The notes beneath the pieces were generated by a model. That model was not told the origin of the DNA and searched no databases. It saw only the letters and a list, made by a program, of their open reading frames with translations. Below, one piece after another: positions 17,464 to 30,360 of a stretch of DNA of 64,000 bases (positions are counted from its first letter, which is position 1; each line of letters starts with the position of its first letter). This DNA is from Thioalkalivibrio sp. ALJ24 (GTDB taxonomy: Bacteria; Pseudomonadota; Gammaproteobacteria; Ectothiorhodospirales; Ectothiorhodospiraceae). The translations under genes were made by a program, and so were the position numbers. The stretch lies in contig NZ_KB898727.1 of assembly GCF_000377785.1 (NCBI RefSeq), positions 62,001-126,000 on the forward strand, given 5' to 3'.

Positions 17464-17620
17464 TCCAGACTCCAGATCAGAAACATTGCCAAAGGTTTAA
17501 CACGCCGCCGCTGCCCCGGCCCATACCCGGACGCCGGCGCCGTCATTGCAACCGCCGGGTTTCCGCGATGGCGGAGCCGGGGATCTGGCGCTGCGCGCCC
17601 AATCCGTTAGCATACCGCGC

Positions 17621-18434
17621 ATGGAATGGATCGATATCTGCTTCAACCTCACCCACGAATCCTTCAACAAGGAACGCGACGAGGTCCTCGAGCGCGCGCG
17701 CGAGGCCGGCGTGTCCTGGATGCTGATCACCGGCGCCGACGCCCACCAGAGCGAGAAGTGCCTGAAGATCGCCGACCAGTACCCGGACTGCTGCCGCGCC
17801 ACCCTGGGCGTGCACCCGCACCTGGCCAGACAGTGGACCGACGCGACCGCCGCGCGGTTCAGTGACCTCGCCCGCGCGGACGCCAACGTGGTCGCCATGG
17901 GCGAGATGGGGCTGGACTACAACCGTGACCACTCGCCGCGCCCGCAGCAGCGCATCGCCTTCGAGGCCCAGCTGGAGCTGTCCGCGGACCTCGGCCTGCC
18001 GGTGTTTCTGCACGAACGCGACGCCCACCACGACTTCGCGCAGATCCTGCGCCGCTGGCGTGACAAGGTGCCGGCCGCCGTGGTGCACTGCTTTACCGGC
18101 GAGGCCGACGCCCTGGCCGAATACCTCGACCTCGACTGCCACATCGGCATCACCGGCTGGGTCTGCGACGAGCGCCGCGGCAAACACCTGCACACGCTGG
18201 TCCCGACCATCCCGCGCGGCCGCCTGATGATCGAGACCGACGCCCCGTACCTGCTGCCGCGCACCCTGCCGAAGGGCACCGGCAAGAAGATCGGCAACGG
18301 CCGGCGCAACGAGCCCGCCTTCCTCCCCCACATCGGCGAATACGTGGCCCAGCTGCGCGACGAGACCCCGGAAGACCTCGCCGACCACACCACCGCCACA
18401 GCCCGCGCCTTCTACCACCTGCCCGAAACCGCCG

Positions 18435-18442
<8 letters not shown>
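17621..18442 (+). CDS. TatD-family metal-dependent DNase/hydrolase
   Basis: 273 aa. Motifs of the TatD TIM-barrel are DICFNLTHESF (a variant of the DxHxH start), TLGVHPHLA, MGEMGLDY, PVFLHERDAH, VVHCFTGE and IETDAPYLLPR. In most TatD proteins the first motif is xxDSHCHL or DIGANLT; the NLT form here matches the E. coli TatD (rather than YcfH/YjjV) type, 3'-5' DNA/RNA exonucleases linked to DNA repair. The start ATG at 17621 overlaps no other gene; the stop overlaps the SDR gene by 8 bases. Confidence 0.92.
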
Positions 18443-19202
<760 letters not shown>

Positions 19203-19228
19203 ATCGTTGCGGCGACGGAACGGATCCG

Positions 19229-21880
19229 TCACCCCGTACTCGTTACAGTCGAACCGGGCCCGAAGCTGAGCAGGCGTTGCCGCACCACATCGGCGACCAC
19301 CCGCAGGTCGGCGTCGCGGGTGTCGTGCACCTGCACGGTTGCGCGTACCGCGGGGTCGAGGGGCTCGCCGAGGGCGGCCTCGAGGTCGACCTCGGGCGTG
19401 TGCGCGGGGCACCCGTCGAGCCAGGCGGGGTGGTACTCGCAGCCCGGTTCGGCGGGGAACAGCGCGGCGTAGGCAATCCGCGCCTCGACCAGGTCCTGGA
19501 AAAAGTGGCTGCCGAACGAGAGGTCGGGGACGATGCCGGCGTCGGGGTCGGCCACCTCCACCAGCATGCGCACGCGGTCGATGTCGGCGAAGCGCACGGG
19601 CACGCCCAGTTCGGGGGTGCCCGTGCCCCAGCGGCCGGGGCCGATCAGGAGCGTGGCGCATTCTTCGGGACGGGCGTACTGGCGGTTGAGGACGCCGACC
19701 AGGCGGGCCACGGCGTATTTCTGCGGGCGGGAGAGCCCGGCGTAGCGGGCACCCTCCACGCGGATGACGCGGTCGATGGCGAGATCCATGTTGCCACCCA
19801 TGAAGCGACCGTCACTGGCGAAAAACAGGCGCTGCGGGTCAACCCCGTCCGGCAGTTCCACCGGCCGGTCGCTGCCCAGGGTGGCGAGCGGCCGGCACTG
19901 CACCAGGTTCACGCCGGCGTTGCCATCGGCGTCGAGGTGCACGGTGAACTCGACGTCCACCGGGTGGGCATAGGCGGCCTCCAGGGTCTTGAGCAGGTCG
20001 CGCATCAGCGGGGCGAAGCCGGTGCGCTGCAGCAGCGGGGTGAAGGTCACCCGCCACAGGCGCTCCTCGCGCCCCTGCTCGCGGGCGCGACGGCCGGCCT
20101 CGCGGTCGATCTCGCCGAGCAGGTTCAGCGGCAGGTCCGGTGCGGCCCCGGCCAGTTGCTGGACGGGCACGGCGGCCTCACGGTTGGCCTCGATGTCGAG
20201 CACGTCGGCGGCGTGCTGCGAGTAGCGGTAGGCCTCGTCCCGGCTGTGGAACGGTTGCCGCTCGGGCCGGTCCAGCGCCACGACGCAGGCATGGTCGCGC
20301 GCAACCCGGTCCACCGCGCGGGTACCCAGCCCCAGCACCAGGCGCAGCATCCCGGCGGACGGATCCAGCGCGCCGTCCCAGACGAAGGTGTTCCACGAGA
20401 CCCCGACGCCGGCGGCGTCCGGCAGGTAGCGGGAGCCGTGGTAGCGCCCGTTGACCCGCTGCAGCAGCAGCGCCATGGGTTCCTCCTGATCCATCAGGCC
20501 GCGCTGCCGGCGGTAGCTCAGCGCGTCGTCGCTCATGGTCGACGCATAGACCCGGCGGATGGCGTCCTCCAGCCGCGCCAGGCGCTCGGCGGGGTTGCCC
20601 TGATTCACGCAGAACACGCTCTCGTACTTGCCGGCAAAGGCATTGCCGAAGCCGTCTTCCAGCAGGCTGCTGGAACGCACCAGGATCGGGTACTGGCCGT
20701 AGTGGTCGAGCACCCGCTCCAGTTCGCGGCGCACCTCCGGCGGGATCTCGCCGTGCAGCATGTCGTGGCGCAGGCTGCGCGCCTCGTCGAAATAGCCTTC
20801 CGGGGTGCGCTGGCGCATCAGCCGCGGCCACCAGCCGTTGTACACCAGATAGGCGTAGTACACGTCCGCGCCGATGAAGTGCGAGTCGTGCGGTTCCAGC
20901 ACCCGCCCCCAGCGCTGCGGGTCCTGCGCGAGCAGGATGCGCCGCGCCAGCAACATGCCCGCGGCCTTGCCGCCAATGTAGCCGCTGCCGACCATGCGGC
21001 TGCGGATCGCCAGCAGCTCCTCCAGCCCGAGGTGGCGCCGCGCCAGTTCCAGCATGCGCTCGTCGCGGCCGATCAGCACCCGCAGGATCTCGTCCTGCAC
21101 CCGGGCGCGGTCGGCCGCCGGCGTGCCCTCCGCCAGCGCGTCGGAGGCCGCGAGGAACAGGCGGTCCCAGTAATCCAGCAGTTGCCGCCCGTGCGGCTGC
21201 CCGGGGCGCTGTTCCTCCAGCAGCGCCTGCAGCCGCGTGGCCTCGCTGCTGTCCACCACCGGCTCGAACTGCGTGCCGCGCTGGCGGTGCGGCAGGAACA
21301 TGGTCGGCGAGCTGCGCTGCCACACCTTGACCGGCTGCACATGCACCGCCTCGCCGGCGCGGCGCACGTCGATCAGCACCTGGGTGGTCTCGCGGATGCG
21401 CGACAGCGTGGTGTGCGAATGGCTGTGCGGATGCAGCGCGAACCAGGCCACCGTATCCATCTGGTACAGATACGGGCAGATGGCGCGGAAGAAGTTGCCC
21501 ACCATGTGATCGGTGGCCCAGGCATCCAGCAGATCCGACAGGCAGTCGCACAGATAGAACGCGCCGCGACCGTATTCGGTGATCAGGCGGAAGACGTGGC
21601 GGGTGAACGGCTCGAAACCGCGCAGGGCGTCGATGGGCACCACCTCGACCCCCGGCCCGGCCTCCACCAGCGGCGCATGGCTGCCGAAGCGCAGGTAGAT
21701 GATGGTACGCCCCCGGGCGCGGGCCGCGGCCACGAACGGCTCGACGAAGCGGCGGTAGTCCTCGATGTCGTCGACCCGCCAGACCACGTTGTCACCGACC
21801 CGCAGGCCGTCAAGCACATGATCCAGGCCCTGCAGACCGGTGGAGACGACTGCCTGCTGCACCTGCGGATCTTTGGTCAT
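19229..21880 (-). CDS. PEP synthase-like protein with degenerate KaiC-like N-terminal domain
   Basis: 883 aa. The central and C-terminal part (about residues 300-800) is a pyruvate-phosphate dikinase/PEP synthase ATP-grasp domain: GYIGGKAAGMLLARR, ILVRSSSLLEDGFGNAFAGKYESV and VEFTVHLDADGNAGVNLVQCRPL. No phosphohistidine swivelling domain or PEP/pyruvate TIM barrel follows, so it is not a complete PEP synthase. Residues 1 to about 220 (GLQGLDHVLDGLRVGDNVVW ... TIIYLRFGSH) resemble the start of a KaiC/RecA-like domain but lack the Walker A lysine loop. The ATG at 21880 is chosen; a TTG at 21913 is possible. Function is unknown. Confidence 0.82.
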   Translation of the reverse strand: MTKDPQVQQAVVSTGLQGLDHVLDGLRVGDNVVWRVDDIEDYRRFVEPFVAAARARGRTIIYLRFGSHAPLVEAGPGVEVVPIDALRGFEPFTRHVFRLITEYGRGAFYLCDCLSDLLDAWATDHMVGNFFRAICPYLYQMDTVAWFALHPHSHSHTTLSRIRETTQVLIDVRRAGEAVHVQPVKVWQRSSPTMFLPHRQRGTQFEPVVDSSEATRLQALLEEQRPGQPHGRQLLDYWDRLFLAASDALAEGTPAADRARVQDEILRVLIGRDERMLELARRHLGLEELLAIRSRMVGSGYIGGKAAGMLLARRILLAQDPQRWGRVLEPHDSHFIGADVYYAYLVYNGWWPRLMRQRTPEGYFDEARSLRHDMLHGEIPPEVRRELERVLDHYGQYPILVRSSSLLEDGFGNAFAGKYESVFCVNQGNPAERLARLEDAIRRVYASTMSDDALSYRRQRGLMDQEEPMALLLQRVNGRYHGSRYLPDAAGVGVSWNTFVWDGALDPSAGMLRLVLGLGTRAVDRVARDHACVVALDRPERQPFHSRDEAYRYSQHAADVLDIEANREAAVPVQQLAGAAPDLPLNLLGEIDREAGRRAREQGREERLWRVTFTPLLQRTGFAPLMRDLLKTLEAAYAHPVDVEFTVHLDADGNAGVNLVQCRPLATLGSDRPVELPDGVDPQRLFFASDGRFMGGNMDLAIDRVIRVEGARYAGLSRPQKYAVARLVGVLNRQYARPEECATLLIGPGRWGTGTPELGVPVRFADIDRVRMLVEVADPDAGIVPDLSFGSHFFQDLVEARIAYAALFPAEPGCEYHPAWLDGCPAHTPEVDLEAALGEPLDPAVRATVQVHDTRDADLRVVADVVRQRLLSFGPGSTVTSTG

Positions 21881-22010: not shown

Positions 22011-22556
22011 ATGAAGACTTCGGTAATTCTGACGCTGATCGGACCGGACCGTCCGGGACTGGTCAGCAAGGTGGCCACCCGGGCGCATGACGCCGGCGGC
22101 AACTGGCTGGAGAGCCGCATGGCGCAGCTGGCCGGCCAGTTTGCGGGAATCGTGCTGCTGGAGGCCGATGCCACGACGGTCGAGGGCCTGGAGGCGGCGC
22201 TGCGGGAGCTGGAAAGCGAGGGCCTGCAGATCCACATCCAGCGTGGTCACGACGACACCACCGCGCCTGCACGCCACCCGGTCATCCTGGATGTCATCGG
22301 CCACGACCGGCCGGGCATCGTGCAGGACCTCACCGCGGTACTGTCGCGTCGCGACGTGGGCGTGGAGAACCTGGACACCGCCGTCGAGCCGGCATCGATG
22401 ACCGGCGAGCCGATGTTCCGTGCCCGCGCCCGGCTCGGGGTGCCCGAAGGCGTGGACCTGCACTCCCTGCAGGACGACCTGGAGGCGCTGGCCAACGAGC
22501 TGATGGTCGACCTCGAGCTCCGCGATCCGCAGGCCGAGGCACCGGAAACCCCCTGA
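22011..22556 (+). CDS. Two-ACT-domain protein, GcvR-like
   Basis: 181 aa with two ACT repeats, each opening with the same signature: VILTLIGPDRPGLVSKVA (residues about 5-22) and VILDVIGHDRPGIVQDLT (about 89-106). This is the layout of GcvR, the glycine cleavage accessory repressor, and of related amino-acid sensors; no gcv genes are nearby. The start ATG at 22011 follows AGGAG at good spacing. A truncated second copy of its 3' end lies 1.1 kb downstream at 23547-23725. Confidence 0.88.
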   Translation: MKTSVILTLIGPDRPGLVSKVATRAHDAGGNWLESRMAQLAGQFAGIVLLEADATTVEGLEAALRELESEGLQIHIQRGHDDTTAPARHPVILDVIGHDRPGIVQDLTAVLSRRDVGVENLDTAVEPASMTGEPMFRARARLGVPEGVDLHSLQDDLEALANELMVDLELRDPQAEAPETP

Positions 22557-22575
22557 CGGGCCACACCTGGCCGGC

Positions 22576-23427
22576 TCAGACCACCAACCAGTAGCCGGTG
22601 TAGACCAGCACCAGCAGGTACACACCGCGCGGCAGCCATTCGGCCACGATCTCGCGGCGCAGGGCGAGATGCCCGTCCAGCTCGCGGGCCCGATACTGCA
22701 GCACCGCGGGCAGGCGGCCGGCCGCCTCGCCCGAGGACAACAGTCCGGGTTCGCGTTCGGGCTCCAGCATGGCCTCGCGCCGCAGCGCCTCGACCACCGG
22801 CAGTCCCTCCGCACAGGCCTTGGCCGCCGTATTCAGCCGCCGCCGAAACTCGCCGGACTCCGCCGCGGCCAGCCCCTCCAGCGCCTGATCCGCTGGCACA
22901 CCGGCCCCCAGCACCGCACCCAGGTCCCGTAACAGCGCCTGCCGCCGTCCGGCCCCGGGCAGACGCCCCGGCCGCAGGCGCCAGCGCCGCCACGCCCGCA
23001 GCAGCGGGCGCCAGAAGCGAAACGCCGCCCAGACCAGCAACCCGGTCACCACCAGCGGCTGAAGCACGGCGAACAGATAACCCGATCCGTCCAGCTCGCC
23101 TCGGAACAGCGCCGGCAGTGGCGCGGCCACCAGCGCCACCACCCACAGCAGCGCCGGCAGCAGCAAGCCGGCGCGGATCCGCCGCTCGGTGTTCTCCTCG
23201 CGATGCAGCCGGTCGGCCAGCAGCCGCAGCGCGCGGTCCAGCCGCCCGGCGGTCTTCAGCGACTCCAGCAGCGGCCGTTCTTCGGGGCGGATCCATCCGG
23301 CCGCCTCCAGCGCGCGCAGGGGTTCGGCACGGCCCGGGGGCAGGCCCGCTGCCCCGCTGGCCCGTTGCCAGTCCACACCCGCCTCCAGCAGGGTCGCCAG
23401 CTCGTCCAGGTGCTGCACGCGCCTCAT
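22576..23427 (-). CDS. Orphan type II secretion F (GspF/PilC-like) membrane protein
   Basis: 283 aa. It shows the two-repeat layout of T2SF domains: a cytoplasmic helical bundle (LDELATLLEAGVDWQRAS ... LLESLKTAGRLDRAL), paired membrane helices around residues 100-150 and a second bundle (LLRDLGAVLGAGVPADQALEGL ... GEAAGRLPAVL), ending in a final membrane helix. It is shorter than full PilC (about 400 aa), and no GspE/PilB ATPase or pilin is adjacent. The ATG at 23427 is chosen, without a clear Shine-Dalgarno. It could be a partner for pilus genes elsewhere or an unrelated membrane scaffold. Confidence 0.72.
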   Translation of the reverse strand: MRRVQHLDELATLLEAGVDWQRASGAAGLPPGRAEPLRALEAAGWIRPEERPLLESLKTAGRLDRALRLLADRLHREENTERRIRAGLLLPALLWVVALVAAPLPALFRGELDGSGYLFAVLQPLVVTGLLVWAAFRFWRPLLRAWRRWRLRPGRLPGAGRRQALLRDLGAVLGAGVPADQALEGLAAAESGEFRRRLNTAAKACAEGLPVVEALRREAMLEPEREPGLLSSGEAAGRLPAVLQYRARELDGHLALRREIVAEWLPRGVYLLVLVYTGYWLVV

Positions 23428-23546
23428 GTCAGCGGCGATGCACAACCGACGGGACGCAACCCGATTTCGCGCCACGCATCACTGGCATCATCAACGGCTC
23501 CCGGCATCCGAAACAAGCCTTTCAGTATAACCCTCCCCGGGGAAGC

Positions 23547-23725
23547 GGCATCAGTGTCGGCACCCCGGAAACCGCCTGCGAGCCCGGTTCGATGACCGCC
23601 CGGGCATGACCGAGGGTCCGGATCTGCACGCCCTGCAGGACGACCTGGAGGCCCTGGCCAACGAGTTGATGGTCGATCGCGAACGGCACGCCCCGGTACA
23701 GGAGCCATCCAGCTCTGCGGGCTGA
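23547..23725 (+). pseudogene. Decayed copy of the 3' end of the ACT/GcvR-like gene
   Basis: Positions 23631-23676 match 22465-22510 of the intact gene at 44 of 46 bases, both differences synonymous. Upstream similarity continues (ACEPGSMT against AVEPASMT), but a net 28-base deletion just after the shared GATGACC shifts the frame and removes FRARARLGV. The surviving part would read as a 39-aa frame from an ATG at 23606 (MTEGPDLHALQDDLEALANE). The rest of the 327-base gap between the GspF-like and EAL genes shows no other gene. Confidence 0.8.
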
Positions 23726-23754
23726 GTGCCCGTGCCGGACGGGCAAGCCGGTTC

Positions 23755-25032
23755 TTACCCCGGGGCCGAGCCGGTTTCCTTGAGCACCCGTGCCTTGAAA
23801 TCGGCCAGGGAGACAGGGCGACCAAGACCGGGGTGAAAGCCCTGCAAGAGATCGCAACCCAGCGCACGCAGGTGCTCGAGGGTCCCGTCGTCCTCAACCC
23901 CTTCGGCCACCAGCATCAGATCCAGATTGTGGCCAAGCATGACCATGGACTCCACGATGCGCTGATGTGAGGGGCTGGAAACCAGCTCGCGAATGAAGGT
24001 CCTGTCGATCTTGAGTTCGTCCAGCGGCATACGGAGCAACCGCTCCATGGAAGAGTAACCGGTACCGAAGTCGTCCATGGCAACCCGCAGCCCGAGATCC
24101 TTCATCCGGCGCAGAGCCTTGCGTGCCTCGGTGTCACTCTCCATGACCGCGGTCTCCGTCAGCTCGACCGTGACCCGATCCGGAGGCACCCCCCACACAT
24201 CCAGCGACTGGCCGACCAGTTCCACCAGCTCGTCTTCCTTCAGGTCGCCCGCGGAGAAATTCACCGACACGCCCAGATCCGCCCCGACCTGGCGGTACTC
24301 AGCGCACTGGCGCAGGGCGGTGTTGAACACCCAGTGCGTCAACCGGGGCATCAGGTCGGTCCCCTCCGCCACACCCACCATGGTGTCCGGCCGGACCGGT
24401 CCATACCGGGGGTGGTTCCAGCGCAGCAGGGCCTCGGCCGACACCACACGTCCGGTGGACATTCCGACCTGCGGTTGATACTCCAGATAGAGCTGGCCGT
24501 CCTCGATCGCCTCGCTCAGCCGGGACCACAGATCGACCCCCTCCAGCATCTCGGTGGACGCATCGGTGGTGTATCGACGCAGGCTCGCGCGTGCGCGGCG
24601 CGCCTCTCGCACCGCCGCAAACGCCCGGGACAGCAACTGATCGGGCGGCATGGATTCAGCAGCCAGCCCCAACCCCACGCGCGGCCACAGCAAGATCTGC
24701 CGGCCTTCACAGGCAAACGGCTCGCTCAGCACACGCAGCACCTTGTGCGCCGCCAGTTCGGCAAACCCGCTTCCTCCCGCCTCGGGCAGGAAGCAGGCCA
24801 GCTGATGCCGGCCGGTAACCCCGGTCAGACCATCCGGAATTCGGGCATTCAGTGCCTTGCCGGCCCGCCGGAGCAGGGCATCCGCAACCGTGTAGCCAAA
24901 GGCGACATCCACGTCCGCCAGCCCCTCCAGCTCAACGACCACCATGGCCATGCGAGCCCCCGTTTCCCGGGCTCGCGCGGGGAACTCCCCGAGGGACCGG
25001 ACAAAGTCGTGGTATTCCAGTAAGTCTGGCAT
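23755..25032 (-). CDS. EAL-domain c-di-GMP phosphodiesterase with degenerate GGDEF
   Basis: 425 aa. The N-terminal half (about 1-165) has a GGDEF-like fold with GRHQL where the GGDEF motif should be, so it cannot be an active cyclase. The EAL half (about 170-420) keeps the catalytic and metal-binding set: EALLRW, VNFSA, VELTETAV, MDDFGTGYSS, LKIDR, AEGVED and LLQGFHPG. It is therefore probably an active phosphodiesterase that turns c-di-GMP into pGpG. No transmembrane or sensor domain is present. The start is ATG at 25032, and the HD-GYP gene lies 81 bases upstream on the same strand, so they may share a transcript. Confidence 0.92.
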   Translation of the reverse strand: MPDLLEYHDFVRSLGEFPARARETGARMAMVVVELEGLADVDVAFGYTVADALLRRAGKALNARIPDGLTGVTGRHQLACFLPEAGGSGFAELAAHKVLRVLSEPFACEGRQILLWPRVGLGLAAESMPPDQLLSRAFAAVREARRARASLRRYTTDASTEMLEGVDLWSRLSEAIEDGQLYLEYQPQVGMSTGRVVSAEALLRWNHPRYGPVRPDTMVGVAEGTDLMPRLTHWVFNTALRQCAEYRQVGADLGVSVNFSAGDLKEDELVELVGQSLDVWGVPPDRVTVELTETAVMESDTEARKALRRMKDLGLRVAMDDFGTGYSSMERLLRMPLDELKIDRTFIRELVSSPSHQRIVESMVMLGHNLDLMLVAEGVEDDGTLEHLRALGCDLLQGFHPGLGRPVSLADFKARVLKETGSAPG

Positions 25033-25113
25033 GGGCCGGGTCCCGCTCGCTGTCTTGTGAGCGCCTGAGCGCCGGCACCGCCGGCTGGAGGCGAGTCAGT
25101 CAGGATGACGCTT

Positions 25114-26361
25114 TCAGAGATAGTAGCGTGCCGGGTCGATTCCGTAAGCGCCGGCCGGCAGACCACAGCGGATCTGCCGGCGGGCGCCCTCCGATTCCGG
25201 ATCGCGGTCGGCCAGATCCAGTTCCAGCGGATCGGGATAGGGCGTGTGTGACGGATCCAGGATGCGCATGACGCGGGGCATGAACCGCTGTGCGCGCCGG
25301 TGGCTCAGTACGATCGCCACTTCGCCGTTGTCGAGTTCCACCAGACTGCCGACCGGGAACAGCCCGACGCAGTGAGTGAACTGATCCACCAGCGCCGAAT
25401 TCAGGCCCCAGCGAGCGCCTTCGCGCAACTCCATCAAAGCCTCGTGCGGCGTCATGACCGGACCACCCCCGGCCAGCATCTCCTCGTAGGAGTCGGCAAT
25501 GGCCGCCATGCGCGCGAAGGCATTGATCTGGTTGGCCACAAGCCCCCGCGGATAGCCGCGTCCATCCTCGCGTTCGTGATGCTGCGCGACGATCTCGTAC
25601 ACCCCCTCCGGAATCCCGTGGGATTGCTGCAGGATCGCCTCACCGTATTCGACATGCCGCCGAAGTTCGCGGCGCTGATCGGGCGAGAGACGCCCGCCGC
25701 GCCCGAGCAGTTCGTCCGGAAGGCGCATCTTGCCGATATCCATCAGCAGCCCCCCCAGACCGAGTATCGACAACTCGGCGCGACTCAGCCCCAGATGCCG
25801 CCCCAGCGCCAGAAGATGAACGGACACTTTCAGCGAATGGTCGTACAGCACATCACCCGAGTCGCGCAGACGGGCCAGCAACATCAGGGCATCGGGGTTG
25901 CGCTCGATACTTTCACGCAGCGCCTCGGAGGCCTCGCGCGCCAGCTCGATCCGCACGCCGGGGCTGCGCTCCAGACCGTCCCGGATCTGTTCCAGCACGC
26001 GCCCCGCAACCGTGCCGGCCTCGCGCGCCGCCGGCAATTCCTGTTCGACCGGATGCCGGTCGCGGTAGACCGTCACACCCCGGAACCGGGCCGCTTCCGT
26101 CCGCGACGTCGCCGGATCGGTCCGGACGGTGCTGCCAGGCCGGACGGGAGTCCGTGCAAGGGCTTCCGGTACACTTTTCTCCCGATCGATCCAGACCCGG
26201 CTGCAGTACCGCGCGAGCTCGTCAATATCGGCCTGGGAGCGCACCAGAAGGCCTTCGACCAGATAGGGTGTCTCCAGCCAGGGACGGTCCAGCTGACTCA
26301 CATACATCCCGACTTGCAGTTCGGAGACCGCAATCTCTTCCTGAGTCAGCCCGTAGCTCAT
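25114..26361 (-). CDS. HD-GYP domain protein, DUF3391 type, with altered HD motif
   Basis: 415 aa. The N-terminus (about 1-130, VSELQVGMYVSQLDRPWLETPYLVEG) is a DUF3391-type leader, followed by an HD-GYP domain: LYDHSLKVSVHLLALG, then LLMDIGKMRLPDELL and the GYP loop HHEREDGRGYP. Canonical proteins have HDIGK; here the His is replaced by Met, so one metal ligand appears lost while the GYP loop is intact. Activity on c-di-GMP may be reduced or absent. The ATG at 26361 is divergent from the DUF1631 gene; the 213-base gap presumably carries both promoters. Confidence 0.9.
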   Translation of the reverse strand: MSYGLTQEEIAVSELQVGMYVSQLDRPWLETPYLVEGLLVRSQADIDELARYCSRVWIDREKSVPEALARTPVRPGSTVRTDPATSRTEAARFRGVTVYRDRHPVEQELPAAREAGTVAGRVLEQIRDGLERSPGVRIELAREASEALRESIERNPDALMLLARLRDSGDVLYDHSLKVSVHLLALGRHLGLSRAELSILGLGGLLMDIGKMRLPDELLGRGGRLSPDQRRELRRHVEYGEAILQQSHGIPEGVYEIVAQHHEREDGRGYPRGLVANQINAFARMAAIADSYEEMLAGGGPVMTPHEALMELREGARWGLNSALVDQFTHCVGLFPVGSLVELDNGEVAIVLSHRRAQRFMPRVMRILDPSHTPYPDPLELDLADRDPESEGARRQIRCGLPAGAYGIDPARYYL

Positions 26362-26574
26362 ACCATTGAACCCAGCCGTCGAACCCGGCGGCTTTGCGTG
26401 TGATCCTGCTCAAATCCTAACCTTATCGTTGATCGGCCACGCCGACCACCCTGAAACCCCCTTCCTGTGCACCCATGGCCTCAGCACCCCCCGCCCGGTG
26501 CAAATTGAGACCTCCTGGGTGACAATAAGCGCAATATCACGCCCATAGCCCTCGCGGAACACCGGAGCTGATTT

Positions 26575-28689
26575 ATGTCCCTCGACCGGGAACCCACTCT
26601 CGGAACTTCCAGTCATGGCCTCTCCCCCTCCGGCAAATGGACCGGCATGGGCGGGCTCTCGATCGTGCAACGCGAACAGCTGGCCGAGATGATCGTTCCG
26701 CGGGTGCGGGAGCATCTGAGCCGCTGCCTGGAAACCACCCGAACCGAGTGGGAGGCGGGGCGATCCTGGGGAAACTCCAGCCAGAACCCCCTGATGTGGG
26801 CCAACGACTTCCGCCTTTTCGAGCAGCGGGTTCAGGACGACTTTGGCGAAAACCTCATGGAGGATTTCCGGACAAGCGATTACCCCCCGCAATACGAATT
26901 CTCCGGCGTCACGTTCGCCGACGACGATGACGGTCTCGCCATCCTGGACGATTACCAGTCCACCCGACGGTCCCTGCGTCACCGACTCGAGGGGGCGGTA
27001 CGCCAGAACCACCGCTATTCGTTCTTTGTTTTCTCGCAGGCCGCACAGGAAAAAAACCGCTTCGAATATCCCAACTGGGCCCCATGGTCCCCTCTGCACT
27101 GGTACGAACGCCTGATCGAGGTCGGCGAACTCTACTTCGGCCAGTCCGAGATGACGCTGGATCTGATGCGCTCCTATCTGGACTGCATCCAGAAAATCGG
27201 GGCACCCACGCTGGCCTTCGTGGTGGAGGCCATCGAGCAGTGCGGGCTGGTCACCACGCCGCAGGCCGACCCGGAGTCCACGGCCAATCTGCGCCGCAAT
27301 TCCTCGTGGAAGCGCCTGGCCGGCGCCCGCGAATCACGGACGGAAAAGGACACCGAAAACCAGCCCGAACCCGACGCGGTCTGGCGCCCTTCGACCCGCA
27401 ACGCCGACGATGCGGAAACCGTGCGCATGCCCGACACCGAGGCCGACCCGGCGCAGTGGGCCGCCTGGGCGTTGAACATGCGGCAGTCGCCCGTATTCCG
27501 GCAGGCCGGGGCAAATACGGAGGCGACGTCAAGCGGCACCCCGGTGACGGCGTTCGTGGCACCGGAGGACCGACCGGATGCGCGCGCCGATCTGGCACCC
27601 TTCATCCTCGACCTGTTGCAAGGGCTATTCGACCACATCTTTCGCGAGGTGGGCTTCAACCCTGCCGTGCGCGCCGTGATCAGCGAAATGCAGTACCCGC
27701 TGGCCACCACGGTGATCCATGATCTCGGCTTCTTCCGTGACCGTTCGCATCCCCTGCGCCTGTGGATCGGCAGCCTGATCAACGTGGCCATGCGCATCAA
27801 CCCGGAATCCGGTGCCGAGAGCGAAGATGTCGAGCGCTATCTGGCACACATCCGCAAGTCCGTTGAACAGCTGCGCAATCAGGCCGACCGCCTGGACCGT
27901 GACGGTGCCGAGGTGCTGCTGAACCAGTTTCTCGACCGCGTGGAAGCCGAGGATGCGCTCTGGCATGAGCGCCAGGTCATGCAGGTCGATCTGCCCAATG
28001 CCGAGGAGTGGGCCGAACAGGCGCGCCGCAACCTGGCCCTCGCCGCACTGGAGACCGGGGCAGATCTGCCGGAATCCGCGGCAGAGGAGATCTTCCAGTC
28101 GTGGGAGACCGTACTGGCCACGGAACACGACGCCGGCGAAGCGGGCGAGGCCCTGCACCGCGTACTGCGTCAGGTCGTGCGTCACATCTGCAAGATGGCC
28201 AGCGCCGCCGAGGTGAACCCGCTCGTGGCTGAAACGAAACAGCACGCAAGTGCGGCCGGACTGGCCGAAGATCGCATCCGCGATCTGGTACAGCACCTGG
28301 GCAAGGCCCATCTTTATTGCCTGCGCGCCGGCGAGGACACCCCGCGTTTTGATCCGCGCGCCCGCCTGCGGATACGAGAATCCGTACGCTACGAGGACGA
28401 CGATCCGGCCCTGGAGCAGGATCTCGACGATGACTATGTGTTCGCCGCGATCGGGCTCGACGTGGGGGACTGGTTCGAGTTCACCGATGACGAGGGCCAG
28501 AATCCCGTACGCCTGGCCCTGATCTGGCGCGGTGACGCCACGCGGCGATTCTTCTTCCTGTCGCTGGACGGCGTACACGCCCGCCGCCACAGCCTGCAGG
28601 GGGTGGCTCACGAACTTCGCGAGGGTCGCATGCACGCATTGCCGGAAGACAACCCGCTGGATGCCGTCATCGAGACACCCACCGACTGA
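26575..28689 (+). CDS. DUF1631-family cytoplasmic protein
   Basis: 704 aa, acidic, with no signal peptide or membrane segment. The overall pattern (QREQLAEMIVPRVREHL N-terminal region, DLLQGLFDHIFREVGFNPAVRAVISEMQ core, HPLRLWIGSLINVAMR) matches the uncharacterised DUF1631 family of proteobacteria. A low-complexity acidic linker spans about residues 245-330. The C-terminus (from about 610: DWFEFTDDEGQNPVRLALIWRG) looks like a small beta-barrel of PilZ-like appearance, which would fit the two c-di-GMP genes next door. That last point is inference from pattern only. Confidence 0.8.
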   Translation: MSLDREPTLGTSSHGLSPSGKWTGMGGLSIVQREQLAEMIVPRVREHLSRCLETTRTEWEAGRSWGNSSQNPLMWANDFRLFEQRVQDDFGENLMEDFRTSDYPPQYEFSGVTFADDDDGLAILDDYQSTRRSLRHRLEGAVRQNHRYSFFVFSQAAQEKNRFEYPNWAPWSPLHWYERLIEVGELYFGQSEMTLDLMRSYLDCIQKIGAPTLAFVVEAIEQCGLVTTPQADPESTANLRRNSSWKRLAGARESRTEKDTENQPEPDAVWRPSTRNADDAETVRMPDTEADPAQWAAWALNMRQSPVFRQAGANTEATSSGTPVTAFVAPEDRPDARADLAPFILDLLQGLFDHIFREVGFNPAVRAVISEMQYPLATTVIHDLGFFRDRSHPLRLWIGSLINVAMRINPESGAESEDVERYLAHIRKSVEQLRNQADRLDRDGAEVLLNQFLDRVEAEDALWHERQVMQVDLPNAEEWAEQARRNLALAALETGADLPESAAEEIFQSWETVLATEHDAGEAGEALHRVLRQVVRHICKMASAAEVNPLVAETKQHASAAGLAEDRIRDLVQHLGKAHLYCLRAGEDTPRFDPRARLRIRESVRYEDDDPALEQDLDDDYVFAAIGLDVGDWFEFTDDEGQNPVRLALIWRGDATRRFFFLSLDGVHARRHSLQGVAHELREGRMHALPEDNPLDAVIETPTD

Positions 28690-28849
28690 CCCCGTTCCGA
28701 AACCCGCGGGCCGCACTGCCAGAGCGAAATCGGCCGCCGGCTCGTCCACTGCAGAACGCAGCCATGCCGCCCGCGAAGGATCTGGACATGCGGGAGCGAC
28801 ACGTCAGACTGAGCAGGATATTCCGTCAATTGAAGCACTGGAGTCACCG

Positions 28850-29173
28850 ATGAGCATGCAGGAGACCATTACCCGGAAGCTGGAGGAGAGCTTTACGCCC
28901 GAGCATCTGGAGGTGGTGAACGAGAGCCACATGCACAACGTGCCCCCGGGCTCGGAGTCGCATTTCAAGGTCACCATCGTCTCCGAAGACTTCCGCGACC
29001 AGAAACTCGTCGCACGCCATCGCATGGTGAACCGCACCCTCGCCGACGAACTCGCCGGCGGGGTCCACGCCCTGGCATTGCATACCCTGGACCCCGATCA
29101 GTGGTTCGAGCGCGCCGGCAAGGTAGCCGACTCCCCCCCGTGCGAGGGCGGTGACGGCGGCGCAAAGGCCTGA
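28850..29173 (+). CDS. bolA: BolA-family protein
   Basis: 107 aa, a KH-like small protein. LNESHMHNVP-type motif (here VVNESHMHNVPPGSESHFKV) and RHRMVNRTLADEL are the family hallmarks, the latter carrying the conserved region around the invariant His used for Fe-S binding with monothiol glutaredoxins. BolA proteins affect iron homeostasis and cell morphology. The ATG at 28850 is used; an in-frame MQE start two codons later is possible. The C-terminal tail beyond residue 92 is Gly/Pro-rich. The stop overlaps the next start as TGATG. Confidence 0.9.
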   Translation: MSMQETITRKLEESFTPEHLEVVNESHMHNVPPGSESHFKVTIVSEDFRDQKLVARHRMVNRTLADELAGGVHALALHTLDPDQWFERAGKVADSPPCEGGDGGAKA

Positions 29174-30360
29174 TGTCCATCACCGAGGTCCTGCGCGCCC
29201 GCCACGACGGGCCGGGGCTGATGGACCTGCTGGGGCGCATCGAGGCGGCCCTCAATCCGGACGCGCCGGAACCTGCCGGCGCCCTGGCGGGGCTCGACCC
29301 GGCCCTGGGCCCGGATACCCACGTGGTGCTGTGGCTGATCGACGGCTTCGCCGACGACTACCGGCGGCACACCCCCCTGATGCAGGCCGACCACCACGCC
29401 ACGCTGGAGACGGTGTTCCCCAGCACCACGGCCACCGCGATCACCAGCATCCTCACCGGCCGGCACCCGGCGCACCACGGGCTGCTCGGCTGGCACACCC
29501 GACTGGCCGAAACCGCGCGCACCCTGACCGTGCTGATGGCGGAGGAACGCGGCGCCGATGATCAGGCCACGCGCCTGGACCATCGCGAACTCGCCGCCCG
29601 GGTGCGACCGGACCGGCTGATCGACCGCCTTGGCTGTGCCAGCACCTTCATCGGCCCGAAGTGGATCGGCCACTCCCCCTACAACCGAATGATGAGCGAG
29701 GGTGCGGGGTTTGTCGGCTTCGACGGCATCAGCGACCTGCCGGCGCGCGTGGCCGCCCATGTACGCGCGCATCCGGGGCCGCATTTCACCTACGTCTACT
29801 GGTCGGAGCTGGATCACCTCGGCCACGAATACGGTCCCGACAGTCCCGAGGTGGAACACCACCTGAAACAGCTGGATCTCGCCTACACCGCCACCTGCGC
29901 CCAGCTCGCCGGGACCGACGCGGTGATGCTGACCACCGCCGACCACGGCATGCGCCCGGTGGAGCGCCGTCTCGATCTGCGCGAGGCCCCGGCGGTGCAG
30001 GACTGCCTGCGGCACCGCCTGACCGGCGAACCGCGCGCCGCGCTGGCCCACGTGCGCGAAGGCCGCGAAGCCGCGTTCGAGGCCGCCGTCGCGCAGAGCT
30101 TCGGCGACGATATCGCCCTGCTGCCGCGCGAGGCCTGGATGGCCGGCGACACCTTGGCCCCCACCCTCGGCCCCGGACCGGAACACCCGGAGCTGCGGGC
30201 CCGCGCCGGCGACTACCTCCTCCTGCCCGCGGCCGACGCCTACCTGGTGGACCCGCCGGCCGACGACGAAGGCCCGTTCTTCCGTGGCGCACACGGCGGG
30301 CTCTCGCCCGAGGAACGCCGCATCCCGCTGTTCCTTCGGTCGCTGGCCAATTCCCGGTAA
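29173..30360 (+). CDS. Nucleotide pyrophosphatase/phosphodiesterase (alkaline phosphatase fold)
   Basis: 395 aa. It has the metal-site pattern of type I phosphodiesterases: LWLIDGF (first Asp), VFPSTTATAITSILTG with the nucleophilic Thr, WSELDHLGHEYGP (Asp/His), TADHGM and GAHGGLSPEE. Family members hydrolyse nucleotide pyrophosphates, phosphodiesters or phosphonates; the substrate here is not evident. There is no signal peptide, so a cytosolic place is likely. It is translationally coupled to bolA (TGATG). Confidence 0.85.
   Translation: MSITEVLRARHDGPGLMDLLGRIEAALNPDAPEPAGALAGLDPALGPDTHVVLWLIDGFADDYRRHTPLMQADHHATLETVFPSTTATAITSILTGRHPAHHGLLGWHTRLAETARTLTVLMAEERGADDQATRLDHRELAARVRPDRLIDRLGCASTFIGPKWIGHSPYNRMMSEGAGFVGFDGISDLPARVAAHVRAHPGPHFTYVYWSELDHLGHEYGPDSPEVEHHLKQLDLAYTATCAQLAGTDAVMLTTADHGMRPVERRLDLREAPAVQDCLRHRLTGEPRAALAHVREGREAAFEAAVAQSFGDDIALLPREAWMAGDTLAPTLGPGPEHPELRARAGDYLLLPAADAYLVDPPADDEGPFFRGAHGGLSPEERRIPLFLRSLANSR

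Follow-up and report, generated by a model that had tools for sequence, protein, structure and literature searches.

The window, a stretch of 64,000 nucleotides, comes from a Thioalkalivibrio genome of 2.81 Mb. The gene order in the region of interest is: PPDK-N-domain gene (-), ACT gene (+), GspF-like gene (-), ACT gene remnant (+), EAL gene (-), HD-GYP-like gene (-), DUF1631 gene (+), bolA (+), and phosphodiesterase gene (+). Individual features are as follows.

22011 to 22556, + strand: intact double-ACT-domain gene, 181 amino acids (ACT_6, 8.6e-24; ACT_4, 2.6e-8)
22576 to 23427, - strand: GspF-like (T2SSF) gene (T2SSF, 8.5e-20), at the same place in T. halophilus
23428 to 23545, no strand: native spacer on the upstream side of the GspF-like gene (81% where 23475-23552 is aligned with T. 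halophilus)
23546 to 23725, + strand: remnant, from the 3' end of a different type of ACT gene, with a net loss of 28 bases at ~23596
23606 to 23725, + strand: open frame of 39 amino acids within the remnant (from the ORF list), probably not a gene
23755 to 25032, - strand: EAL protein, proposed import cargo (EAL, 2.9e-65)
25114 to 26361, - strand: DUF3391 and HD protein, proposed cargo (HD_5, 6.5e-26; DUF3391, 9.1e-22)
26575 to 28689, + strand: DUF1631 protein, proposed cargo (DUF1631, 6.9e-28)
28758 to 28917, + strand: upstream region and first codons of bolA, of ALE/ALJ type, where the proposed import would end on the right
28850 to 29173, + strand: bolA, a mosaic (BolA, 5.7e-30), with an ALE/ALJ-type 5' part and a T. 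halophilus-type 3' part
29173 to 30360, + strand: Type I phosphodiesterase-like gene in the right flank, of the T. halophilus type

The DUF3391 and HD protein is presumably of HD-GYP type. In the EAL protein, a GGDEF match is weak (22 bits, under the cut-off of 23.8). From their domains, the products of the three-gene module look like enzymes of cyclic-di-GMP signalling.

The intact ACT gene is probably the native copy. Its closest records are from Thioalkalivibrio, with T. halophilus HL17 at 80% identity, and the ACT tree described below places it as sister to the T. halophilus gene (100/99). The first-pass annotation, made from the letters of the window alone, had called the gene GcvR-like. 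This label is loose: the double-ACT architecture holds, but the GcvR model (PRK11589) scores 42.5 bits against a cut-off of 267. The resemblance to the GcvR-related double-ACT proteins consists of two ACT-type stretches, similar length, and a weak match over residues 5-165. The difference lies in the score, since another gene of the same genome does better at 79.7 bits. That gene, also double-ACT (L002:1513-2079, - strand), is still under the cut-off. By eye, the ORFs adjoining it resemble what we take to be bcp and dapA; presumably, gcvR of E. coli also sits beside bcp and dapA.

The remnant is a frame-shifted and decayed 3' piece of a second ACT gene, as the first-pass annotation had recognised. 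Two pairs of direct repeats, reported by a repeat finder, connect it to the intact gene. The first pair, 22430-22529 and 23596-23695, is 78% identical with a spacing of 1166. The second, 22351-22404 and 23545-23598, is 70% identical with a spacing of 1194. The difference in spacing bears out a net deletion of 28 bases that breaks the frame. Also correct was the description of the intact gene and the remnant as lying on either side of the GspF-like gene, and of 44 identical bases out of 46 at 23631-23676, with both changes synonymous (GCG/GCC for Ala and CTG/TTG for Leu). The similarity is beyond chance. A protein query with the intact gene recovers the remnant from the same genome (E 1.5e-8), and at the DNA level 23428-23754 hits ACT genes in other genomes with E values as low as 8.6e-29. 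The pseudogene fragment is real, and it is ordinary in kind.

What had been read into the 46-base block was a recent duplication. However, the block encodes LQDDLEALANELMVD, which is nearly fixed within the group. In all 12 ACT genes compared from other haloalkaliphilic Thioalkalivibrio, 42-45 of the 46 bases agree with the window gene, and 41-45 with the remnant. Five more distant ACT genes match at 35-39 and 34-39 bases, respectively. Since the block is equally alike between species, a score of 44/46 is no evidence of recent duplication. The remnant is in fact closer here to ALE31 and ALE14 (45/46) than to the adjacent intact gene (44/46). Hence, gene conversion of the block from the intact copy, which we also considered, is not needed.

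We then asked to which ACT genes the remnant is related. Over aligned columns, it has 36/174 differences to both ALE31 and ALE14, 37 to ALJT, 54/171 to the window ACT gene, and 58/171 to T. halophilus. The nearest sampled relative is thus 21% away. Our ACT tree has 24 rows, 23 of them different (ALJT and G042 are identical in sequence, and probably one strain). Here, the remnant groups with ALE/ALJ/ALJT/ARh2-type genes, in a clade of 11 rows including itself, at 93/95, just below the values that the tool stars. Its nearest row is ALJT (83/43). A pairing of the remnant with the window ACT gene is rejected, with AU p 1.5e-4 across 561 columns and 1.6e-6 for the 174 remnant columns. We conclude that the remnant and the adjacent gene are not the sister pair that a recent tandem duplication would produce. 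The AU test does not reject a clade uniting the remnant with the window and T. halophilus genes (p 0.060 and 0.071), and, with the 174 remnant columns alone, the remnant has no resolved place among the 17 ingroup rows. Note that the Cys in TACEP, and some other residues common to the remnant and the ALE/ALJ genes, also occur in outgroup genes. Such residues are therefore old states rather than marks of the ALE/ALJ group. No second ACT copy of this type was found in the other genomes searched, either by protein (40 relatives) or with DNA of the remnant region. Three short extra DNA matches (G005, G020, and G041) have no significant ACT match at the protein level, so they look like chance. Taking the tree and distances together, we infer that the remnant is foreign rather than an old paralogue.

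The arrangement without a remnant exists in the sister species. In T. halophilus, the ACT gene is followed by the GspF-like gene; the match to the window continues to ~23552, and ~104 bp of non-matching DNA then lead to bolA. A genome search with the remnant region found only the ACT gene and the spacer in T. halophilus. Neither is there a match to DUF1631 in that genome at E 1e-40, and the EAL matches are only 35-36% identical. The GspF-like gene of the window has 89% protein identity to the T. halophilus copy at the same place. It carries two stretches of T2SSF (PF00482, 8.5e-20), and scores 43.9 bits with the GspF equivalog, below the cut-off of 424. The gene is rare in the genus: across 30 genomes, three have relatives at 44-45%, and a fourth has a match of 54 residues at 54%. 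Two of the three relatives at 44-45% lie near unrelated genes, one being beside msrA-, lon-, and encapsulin-like genes. Since T. halophilus has ACT, GspF-like gene, and bolA in this order, with a single ACT of the type and no remnant, there is no sign that the GspF-like gene entered a tandem pair, as had been proposed. At the left junction, inspected by eye, the spacer of the GspF-like gene gives way at ~23537-23552 to codons of the other ACT type, with no shared gene. This is a non-homologous junction, of the sort found at one end in homology-facilitated illegitimate recombination.

The 39-amino-acid frame had been suggested as a retained fragment. An expressed small protein here is highly improbable, and of the alternatives we considered it is the least credible. 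The remnant breaks 8 of the 31 residues that are invariant among the 16 functional ingroup ACT rows (15 different). When the functional rows are left out in turn, each breaks between 0 and 2. Visual inspection shows no ribosome-binding sequence in front of the ATG at 23606. The frame corresponds to a C-terminal tail, and has no match in Pfam or NCBIfam at E 1. In its favour, the 46-base block is better kept than the remainder: compared with ALE31, the remnant has 1/46 differences in the block and 35/128 elsewhere (p 8.8e-5). However, the functional window gene shows the same contrast with ALE31 (3/46 and 33/125), so retention of the block needs no selection on the fragment. The better-kept block was probably inherited from the donor gene, and the remnant is most likely a non-functional scar.

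The right side of the region was examined using bolA, which was found in 27 genomes, 26 of them used for the tree (G008, which is truncated, was left out). From 28945 on, the window gene pairs with that of T. halophilus as its sister (100/99), with 26/226 differences. In the 5' part, which takes in the upstream region and the first codons, this pairing is rejected (AU p 5e-4); the window has 2/92 differences to ALE31, ALJ21, and ARh2, and 21/92 to T. halophilus. We then counted sites that distinguish T. halophilus from at least 80% of a set of 12 group genomes, leaving out ALMg11, which has the opposite pattern. The ratio of group-type to halophilus-type sites is 19:0 before the switch and 10:20 after it (Fisher p 2.0e-6), and 0 of 2000 permutations were as strong. 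A comparison that is independent of T. halophilus agrees: window and ALE31 have 2/92 differences in the first part of bolA and 48/208 in the second (Fisher p 1.1e-6). The same contrast has p <0.005 for 11 of 12 group members, the other being ALJ7 (p 0.13). Hence, bolA is a mosaic, and its type switches between 28917 and 28976. A switch of type within a shared gene is the signature of a homologous crossover, to be read with two caveats. The first is that, among the group members themselves, the 5' part also diverges less than the 3' part (means of 0.032 and 0.068), which weakens the contrast; between group and outgroup, this is not so (0.247 for 5' and 0.221 for 3'). The second concerns ALMg11, a group member by the species tree, with a T. 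halophilus-like bolA start (7/92 differences). Because ALMg11 and T. halophilus share this start, the bolA end has been exchanged more than once. The close relative of ALMg11, versutus, has the other type of bolA start. In the spacer upstream of bolA (28740-28839), ALJT, ALE31, and ALJ21 match the window at 33-34/50 and 39-40/50 positions, a difference of about a fifth to a third.

Between remnant and bolA lies the three-gene module. Relatives of the EAL protein, at 65-71%, occur in 7 of 30 genus genomes, always on another contig than the ACT gene of that genome. Four other genomes also have the EAL, HD-GYP-like, and DUF1631 genes together, and two more have the EAL and HD-GYP-like genes. For EAL and HD-GYP DNA, the window is 71-76% identical to these six, which are 73-95% identical to one another. 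In a search for the usual place of the module in the window and T. halophilus genomes, ~1.2 kb of one flank is present in both (83%), but of the other only ~350-400 bp, too little for a firm conclusion. In a module tree without an outgroup, the window pairs with ALJ16. We did not use this phylogeny as proof of import since, lacking an outgroup, it fits descent as well. ACT gene, module, and bolA were not seen in one contiguous piece in 30 genus genomes or 40 relatives; the donor may be unsampled. The gap between ACT gene and bolA varies in length, being ~0.2 kb in ALJT, 3.7-4.3 kb in ALE31, ALJ3, ALE14, ALJ16, and versutus, and ~6 kb in ALJ21 and G040. It corresponds to 22557-28850 in the window, with matching gaps in L034, L036-L043, and L214-L216. 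In ALE31, the one genome whose gap content was examined, it holds a RimK-like ATP-grasp gene, a GNAT/DUF3335 gene, and a HAD hydrolase.

We built a species tree from gyrB and rpoB (6441 columns, 20 of 30 genus genomes). Window and T. halophilus are sisters (100/100), outside 13 others of the group (100/99). The sister relationship of the ACT genes fits descent, but, with the base of the ACT tree left open, vertical descent of the intact gene is compatible with the data rather than proven. Inside the group, the ACT and species trees disagree, which indicates that the ACT gene has moved before. We also compared dS, drawing on up to 12 named loci (g30730 and g32881 were left out because dN exceeds dS, probably reflecting the wrong strand). 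Between window and T. halophilus, dS is 0.12 for TatD (0.12-0.30 to others), 0.25 for SDR (0.16-0.41), and 0.20 for PPDK-N (0.21-0.22). Thus, left of the ACT gene (17546-21874), other species lie about as near to the window as T. halophilus does, despite the gyrB/rpoB sisterhood. This flank may also be a mosaic and has perhaps seen further exchange. On the right, the phosphodiesterase gene has dS 0.31 and dN 0.039 to T. halophilus, versus dS 0.62-0.79 and dN 0.205-0.235 to 9 others. The window and T. halophilus copies are therefore far from those of other species, above the level of TatD, SDR, and PPDK-N (dN 0.02-0.10). Possibly, 29173-30360 is another replaced gene. Overall, the region looks like a patchwork that has recombined repeatedly, in which the import proposed below would be one layer. 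A survey of the genus raises recombination as a possible origin of Thioalkalivibrio diversity (PMC5345834).

Our preferred explanation, to which we give a probability of about two in three, is a single import of ~5.4 kb. The ancestor would have had the order PPDK-N gene, ACT gene, GspF-like gene, bolA, and phosphodiesterase gene, as T. halophilus has at present. A fragment from another Thioalkalivibrio of the ALE/ALJ kind would then have been taken up, carrying approximately the last third of the donor ACT gene, the EAL/HD-GYP/DUF1631 module, and the beginning of bolA. On the right, the fragment would have entered by homologous crossover within bolA, at 28917-28976. On the left, where no homology is evident, it would have been joined at ~23537-23552, in the spacer upstream of the GspF-like gene. 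The headless donor ACT gene would subsequently have decayed, acquiring the 28-base deletion and losing conserved residues. We infer that both ends stem from one event, that the three-gene module came along with them, and that uptake followed this route. Most likely, then, the remnant is a scar marking the border of DNA that came from a related species.

How do other explanations compare? A recent tandem duplication of the ACT gene, with insertion of the GspF-like gene between the copies and later decay, was suggested by the first-pass annotation. Two ACT copies either side of the GspF-like gene, and one block at 44/46, do look like this. Yet the block is as well conserved in all 12 related species' genes compared, sisterhood of the two copies is rejected by both AU tests, and T. 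halophilus has the GspF-like gene with a single ACT of the type. We consider this origin very improbable. An older duplication, in the ancestor of window and T. halophilus or of the whole group, with the copy decaying here and being lost in T. halophilus and elsewhere, fares somewhat better. It is in line with the unrejected clade of remnant, window, and T. halophilus, and some of the residues that the remnant shares with ALE/ALJ genes may be old states. Conversely, no second copy of the type is present in the other genomes searched, and the mosaic in the adjacent bolA is left unexplained. We regard an old duplication as unlikely.

Only slightly less unlikely is that the two edges have separate histories, one event having left the ACT fragment and module, and another having replaced the 5' end of bolA, here or in T. 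halophilus. The bolA start shared by ALMg11 and T. halophilus points to more than one recombination at this end. Moreover, the 5' part of bolA differs by ~2% from its nearest group members, and the remnant by 21%. Against this, divergence in the spacer upstream of bolA shows that neutral DNA differs to a similar order at both ends. In the ALE31 comparison, moreover, the 5' part of the window bolA is nearer to the group than the 3' part, regardless of T. halophilus. We favour the single import.

An import of this kind would resemble homology-facilitated illegitimate recombination, in which one end is homologous and the other an illegitimate junction (PMC3240628). Here, bolA would hold the homologous end, and the illegitimate junction would lie next to the GspF-like gene. 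In the system described there, DNA enters cells in the laboratory; here, the transfer would be between species, as judged from sequence. A second parallel is found in the type VI secretion clusters of Vibrio cholerae and their orphan immunity genes, for which a homology anchor on one side and a stranded 3' gene end have likewise been proposed (PMC5361080). In that case, it is the end of the resident gene that is shifted and the cargo is an effector-immunity pair, whereas here the fragment would be the donor's.

More tentatively, the gap between ACT gene and bolA may be a preferred site of exchange in the genus. Differing cargo would be swapped from species to species using the conserved bolA codons as a homologous anchor, with truncated ACT tails marking the ends that lack an anchor, and in this case the cargo would be a cyclic-di-GMP signalling module. 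We think this possible but doubtful. More generally, a short block of high identity can mean conservation instead of recent copying. The mechanism that we propose is already known, and its relevance is mainly to the evolution of the genus. If our reading is correct, what appeared to be a local duplication would instead mark an exchange of genes between species of soda-lake sulfur bacteria, both edges of which can be seen.
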